From a virus, in IMG/VR virus record IMGVR_UViG_3300017963_000204, positions 62,001-126,000 of that record: 64,000 nt of DNA, one strand, 5' to 3'. The notes beneath the pieces were generated by a model. The model saw nothing but the letters and a program-made list of their open reading frames with translations. It made no database searches and was not told where the DNA came from. Shown one piece after another: positions 4,092-4,458 of the stretch. The translations under genes were made by a program, and so were the position numbers. Each line of letters starts with the position of its first letter. The first letter of the stretch is position 1.

Positions 4092-4458
4092 TGGAGATGG
4101 CGGGAGTTGAACCCGCGTCCGCAATGCTTCGGAATCGTGCTTCTACGTGCGTATCCTGTGTACGCTACCCCTCGAGACGCCCACAGGCAGGCTCCTCTTC
4201 GGGAGGTCCAGCTCTGATTGTCGGAGACCAGCTCGCCCTGAACCAAGGCTCTCTGGCGTCGTATCCTGCTGATTGACGTCAGCAGCTCGAGCCGCAGGAG
4301 CTCTCGAGGCCGACGCGCTCACGCAGCTTGTGCGTAGGCGAATTGCTCAACATCGTCGTTGGCAGTTGTCGTTGTCTTCGCAGTTTGTCGAGGTCACGAA
4401 GACCACCCCCGGCACGCAACACGTCCCTCCATCACCACGTCGAAACCGTGTCATCCCC
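4092..4458 (-). ncRNA. ssrA: tmRNA (SsrA), phage-encoded
   Basis: The 367-base RNA has the tmRNA hallmarks. The 5' end GGGGATG is followed by GGTTTCGACG, and the 3' tRNA-like end is GGACGCGGGTTCAACTCCCG. Acceptor strands GGGGATG and CATCTCC pair over 7 bp with one wobble. A resume frame starting GCC AAC GAC encodes ANDDVEQFAYAQAA and ends in TGA. The tag begins AND like many bacterial tags but ends AQAA rather than the common ALAA. tmRNA rescues stalled ribosomes by trans-translation; a phage copy could tag host or phage products. CCA is not encoded. Confidence 0.93.

Follow-up and report, generated by a model that had tools for sequence, protein, structure and literature searches.

A phage-borne tmRNA of Myxococcota kinship with a stop-shifted tag, encoded beside Y-RNA-like units and a Ro60 homologue

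Phages are already known to encode tmRNAs, divergent tags among them, as well as Ro and Y RNA. For years, annotations of phage tmRNAs have listed odd tags and left them unexplained, and the extra phage-like tmRNAs found in mycobacteria encode different tags whose effect was left open (PMC9569102). An earlier paper suggested that phages have Y RNAs close to Ro (PMC12282133), and Salmonella YrlA has been proposed to compete for anticodon nucleases (PMC7790460). Ro-like proteins were found in 403 phage records, and among named phages a tmRNA and a Ro homologue occur together in Mycobacterium C1 phage Essence, Streptomyces BE phage StarPlatinum and Myxococcus phage Mx1, which, like the phage described here, are large and carry tRNAs. 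Their tags (ATDTDATVTDAEIEAFFAEEAAALV, ANSNVASAYALAA and VNTNVFGSQMMAAA, respectively) vary between phages and are unlike the one described below. The Mx1 tag (tmRNA at L229 1501-1877) begins with Val, where Ala is usual.

The stretch of DNA analysed here (the window) comprises 64,000 nt, positions 62,001-126,000 of virus record IMGVR_UViG_3300017963_000204. The record is 128,887 bp long, is confirmed as a tailed phage by capsid, prohead protease, portal, helicase and UvsX-like genes, and contains a single tmRNA when scanned as a whole. A further contig of 44.9 kb (G006; L199-L201) belongs to the same phage, being 100% identical across 31.7 kb, and adds 13.2 kb of sequence with five tRNA genes (Leu x3, His, Ser); the 128.9-kb record is therefore incomplete, and it is within this incomplete record that no SmpB was found. 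A search for relatives with the Ro protein returned no close one, and none of the 27 contigs found through the capsid protein (0/27) carries a tmRNA. The part of the window around the tmRNA contains, apart from an array of Y-RNA-like units listed further below, the following features.

1..1471, minus strand: Ro60/Rsr homologue (TROVE + vWA), 499 aa, extending beyond the window's low end by 29 bases (record 61972-63471); PF05731, 2nvo
2738..2812, minus strand: tRNA-Arg (tct); ARAGORN, Rfam
3247..3318, minus strand: tRNA-Phe (gaa); ARAGORN, Rfam
3649..3718, minus strand: tRNA-Met (cat); ARAGORN, Rfam
4092..4458, minus strand: one-piece tmRNA (ssrA); ARAGORN, Rfam RF00023 at 159.1 bits, structure constraint test
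4319..4363, minus strand: tag frame GCC AAC GAC GAT GTT GAG CAA TTC GCC TAC GCA CAA GCT GCG TGA, encoding ANDDVEQFAYAQAA and a stop; ARAGORN
4321..4335, minus strand: inner part of hairpin H5, ACGCA-CAAGC-UGCGU, with the new UGA stop in its 3' arm; Rfam alignment
4328..4330, minus strand: codon 12, CAA (Gln), at the site of the bacterial stop UAA in the H5 loop; Rfam structural alignment and ungapped sequence alignment

An earlier sequence-only reading of this DNA had proposed a full one-piece tmRNA at this place, and both the gene and its tag were borne out. The tmRNA that ARAGORN reports spans exactly 4092-4458 (minus strand) and has the same tag, ANDDVEQFAYAQAA, and the Rfam search aligned RF00023 end to end (model positions 1-374) at 159.1 bits and an E value of 7.8e-63, the gathering score being 47; for the tag with its flank, no chance match is expected within the window. 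The acceptor stem, GGGGAUG/CAUCUCC, is paired at 7/7 positions, among them G3-U70, the identity signal for alanine. The sequence is GGUUUCGAC in the D-loop and GCGGGUUCAACUCCCGC in the T arm; the gene does not encode the CCA end, as CCATCTCCA is followed by TGG. From the resume codon GCC, the tag frame runs through 14 codons to a UGA stop and has an Ala-Ala end with an atypical third-last residue.

The origin of this gene is suggested by its nearest relatives. Among 136 tmRNAs, the bacterial members of which were mostly from Myxococcota, the closest were Myxococcota tmRNAs with the tags ANDDVELAVAA and ANDDVELALAA, at 71-74% identity, and in a tree the phage tmRNA falls in a clade with six Myxococcota tmRNAs (support 0.907). 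On these sequence comparisons, the phage tmRNA belongs phylogenetically with those of Myxococcota, and this similarity points to Myxococcota as a candidate host phylum. Two tmRNAs with a VEQ tag (L010 and L011) were considered as relatives and set aside, as the shared VEQ was imposed by the search pattern and neither lies in the phage tmRNA clade. With the Myxococcota-type one-piece tmRNA (RF00023), the phage gene shares the full structure, G3-U70, the ANDDVE start of the tag and its Ala-Ala end; it differs in a stop that lies three codons downstream, in 14 encoded residues instead of 11 and in a Gln at the third-last position. The commonest tag across 70 Myxococcota genomes is ANDNVELALAA.

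The alignments indicate how this difference arose. In the bacterial relatives, the tag reads ANDDVE-LALAA-stop, with the UAA in the loop of hairpin H5. In the Rfam structural alignment, the model loop UUAAUac lies opposite ACAAGCU of the phage, and in an ungapped alignment the Myxococcota codons GAG CUC GCC GUU GCU GCU UAA stand against GAG CAA UUC GCC UAC GCA CAA. The codon and structure alignments together thus identify the AQAA end as the product of a stop-codon shift with a three-codon extension: because the old stop became CAA, possibly through a single T-to-C change in the ancestral UAA, the frame runs on through three more codons (Q-A-A) to UGA, and the tag is longer than those of its relatives because a stop has turned into a glutamine codon. 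The sequence-only reading had contrasted AQAA with the usual ALAA; that the end is unusual stands, whereas a mere change of residue, that is, a Leu-to-Gln swap inside an ALAA end, is ruled out by the same alignments, the stop shift having added three codons.

Whether such a gene is functional was approached through its structure, which was computed from 8 bacterial tmRNAs with the phage sequence left out. The phage tmRNA retains 71/77 (92%) of the predicted bacterial pairs and shows 12 double compensatory changes; when its 144 differences were re-placed at random in 500 trials, 61% +/- 5% of the pairs were kept (maximum 78%) and 2.8 compensatory changes arose (maximum 8). Compared with this control, the tmRNA therefore looks constrained and functional, with the reservation that the modelled pairs speak for selective constraint on the structure, activity being a separate matter. 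A picked-up host tmRNA that drifts without function, its tag altered by chance, would be in keeping with a tag that has diverged through stop loss and several substitutions and with a host that presumably owns a tmRNA already. We nevertheless regard such a neutral passenger as very unlikely, given that compensatory changes hold the structure far above the random control, that the tag frame has stayed open and that the gene is located among other RNA genes. Nor did a host tmRNA with the same tag, which the earlier reading had named as the observation that would speak for simple pick-up, come to light: the exact tag peptide had 0 matches in ~85,000 bacterial species genomes (contigs of at least 3 kb, stops other than TAG), so simple pick-up of an identical host tag is an unlikely explanation. 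A permuted, two-piece tmRNA is scarcely credible. It was raised by a second Rfam match (RF04321 at 4319-4746) that overlaps the one-piece gene and, at 52 bits, slightly exceeds the gathering score of 47, but the one-piece model reaches 159 bits across all 374 positions, and the permuted match takes its T arm and acceptor from neighbouring unit H of the Y-RNA-like array, with ~230 unaligned bases. The match is an artefact that borrows the tRNA half of that unit; an acceptor piece upstream of the coding piece with a shared acceptor stem was not found, and the one-piece gene is intact.

The fate of tagged proteins is a separate question, for which the earlier reading had offered an answer: the AQAA end would evade ClpXP, and tagged phage proteins would stay stable as a phage adaptation. 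A Gln third from the end was found in 0/52 viral-contig tags and 0/70 Myxococcota tags (each set including a few evident ARAGORN misreads), the Leu normally at this position contributes to ClpX binding (PMC7652416), and some phage tmRNAs end more strangely still, such as that of mycobacteriophage Essence (...EEAAALV), all of which would be compatible with a stable tag. However, the final two residues are Ala-Ala, and cryo-EM and kinetics show that ClpX mainly contacts the final Ala-Ala and the carboxylate (PMC7652416); the same source, citing Flynn et al. 2001, describes the rise in KM after a change of the antepenultimate Leu in E. coli as only 'modestly' large. The Ala-Ala end was moreover regained three codons past the lost stop, a hint at retention of a degradable end. 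The chance that two random codons would both encode Ala is an estimated ~1% at the local G+C, a figure that pairing in the H5 arm raises, and this mildly favours selection for the Ala-Ala end. Other proteases or adaptors may act as well. We expect ClpXP still to degrade the phage tag, perhaps at a lower rate, and at the upper end of this prediction it would be several-fold weaker yet degradable; stability of the tagged proteins is not favoured, and a stable tag as an adaptation appears unlikely.

Upstream of the tmRNA, seven Y-RNA-like units stand in tandem at 4606-5982 on the minus strand.

4606..4760, minus strand: unit H, stem enclosing a permuted tRNA module, in which the 3' half precedes the 5' half; YrlA 36.6 bits, fold, covariation
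4767..4843, minus strand: unit G, bare stem without tRNA module; fold, covariation
4936..5011, minus strand: unit F, bare stem without tRNA module; fold, covariation
5017..5135, minus strand: unit E, stem with partial tRNA module (acceptor, T arm and a hairpin resembling a D arm); fold, covariation
5142..5259, minus strand: unit D, stem with partial tRNA module; fold, covariation
5266..5396, minus strand: unit C, stem with degenerate insert; fold, covariation
5844..5982, minus strand: unit A, stem enclosing a permuted tRNA module; YrlA 36.5 bits, fold, covariation

The flanks common to the seven units (GGAGCG...AGGGUUACUUCG and UCAUCUUCG; as a stem motif, GGAGCG...UUACUUCG...UCAUCUUCG) form two helices with 18 pairs, 96% of them standard. 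In the stems, 25 cells carry changes in both partners of a pair, compared with 7.7 +/- 2.2 for shuffles and <=7 for slid controls, counts that lean towards structure because the rows of the unit alignment were joined and trimmed by hand. The permuted tRNA module lacks an anticodon; units A and H have it in full and D and E in part, that of C is degenerate, and F and G have none. With YrlA and the other bacterial Y RNAs that accompany Rsr, the array has in common the paired stem, in units A and H the full permuted anticodon-less tRNA module, and a nearby Ro gene, located on the same strand ~3 kb further downstream. It differs from YrlA in that units A and H, with RF02553 matches of 36.5 and 36.6 bits, fall short of the gathering score of 69, in that seven units stand in tandem and in that two of them consist of a stem only. 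Units P and Q were also considered as a permuted group I intron-exon arrangement or a bulge-helix-bulge tRNA intron, judged on size and on sequence by eye; YrlA fits better, and intron families were absent from the Rfam E-value scan. A motif scan of viral contigs with GGAGCG...GGGTTACTTCG gave 25 matches, all judged on inspection to be due to chance.

A candidate protein partner of such RNAs is encoded in the same island. The Ro homologue combines a TROVE domain (PF05731, 65.1 bits against a cut-off of 23) with a vWA/MIDAS domain, for which vWA_Ro60 scores 25.1 bits, just under its cut-off of 27.7, with the DISGSM motif present; it also matches the Deinococcus Rsr structure 2nvo with an E value of 4.7e-15. 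Several further elements were noted among the units and around them. A tRNA-like gene missed by ARAGORN lies at 4845-4928 of the window (minus strand), with an enlarged anticodon loop of ~16 nt capped by UUCG. Folds with acceptor and T arms and without a normal anticodon arm, one of them ~140 nt long, occur at 4460-4515, 5399-5542 and 5590-5650 (minus strand) and are possible tRNA mimics, and within 5545-5842 (minus strand) two tRNA halves ~210 nt apart are able to form a 7-bp acceptor stem. A perfect TTGACA at ~6042-6047 (minus strand), which precedes the first Y-RNA unit by ~60 bases and has only a weak -10, is a possible promoter of the RNA island. Elsewhere in the window, one protein (21801-23156, minus strand) is an RNA ligase (PF09414) joined with a tRNA-binding domain (PF01588), which would fit an RNA-repair setting, and another part of the record, at 54551-55657 (L006 14551-15657, minus strand), encodes an ADP-ribosylglycohydrolase-like protein (PF03747, 230 bits) that possibly serves in counter-defence.

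YrlA-like sequence was also found in Essence, Neville, Mx1 and Atuin, near the Ro gene in Essence and Neville, and the YrlA-like RNAs of named Ro-encoding phages score 32-44 bits, which is also under the RF02553 gathering score. Compared with the seven units described here, Essence, StarPlatinum and Mx1 have at most one such match each (StarPlatinum 0). A covariance model of the seven stems matches Arthrobacter phage Atuin (OK040794.2) on both sides of its Ro gene, at 25.2 bits (E 1.4e-4) and 16.7 bits (E 0.018). The matched hairpins (L212 7421-7492 and 9723-9797, plus strand) are unannotated, and a third YrlA-like RNA lies nearby. A search of the whole Atuin record at E 0.1 recovered neither hairpin. 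We take the Atuin hairpins as independent support for the Y-RNA-like units, the second match being weak. An account of a seven-unit array beside a tmRNA was not found in the open-licence papers searched, and to our knowledge the arrangement is undescribed.

All of these observations make it likely that the phage carries a functional tmRNA of Myxococcota-type ssrA origin, with a stop-shifted tag and in the setting of an RNA island. During infection, host AlaRS would charge the phage tmRNA with alanine via G3-U70, and host EF-Tu and SmpB would deliver it to ribosomes stalled on cut or non-stop messages, which it would free while appending A-ANDDVEQFAYAQAA to the unfinished protein. Y RNAs with Ro may act in RNA quality control or compete for anticodon nucleases, and the island as a whole (the seven Y-RNA-like units, the tmRNA, the tRNAs and the Ro60 homologue) would most likely sustain RNA quality control and phage translation in the face of damage to host RNAs. 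A dedicated rescue and quality island, in which graded Y RNAs would load phage Ro60, the stop-shifted tag would be handled unlike the host tag, tRNA mimics would divert host anticodon nucleases and the tmRNA would clear ribosomes stalled by RNA damage, is a tentative and rather doubtful extension of this scheme.

In summary, the odd end of a phage tag can be traced to one event, in which the stop in the H5 loop was lost and an Ala-Ala end is again present, and the traced stop shift makes the retention of the degron in phage tags directly testable. The array, which ranges from bare stem to tRNA mimic, offers a natural dissection of the parts that a Y RNA needs, and together with the phage Ro60 it connects the phage tmRNA, the tRNAs and Ro/Y RNA in what may be a single counter-defence module.
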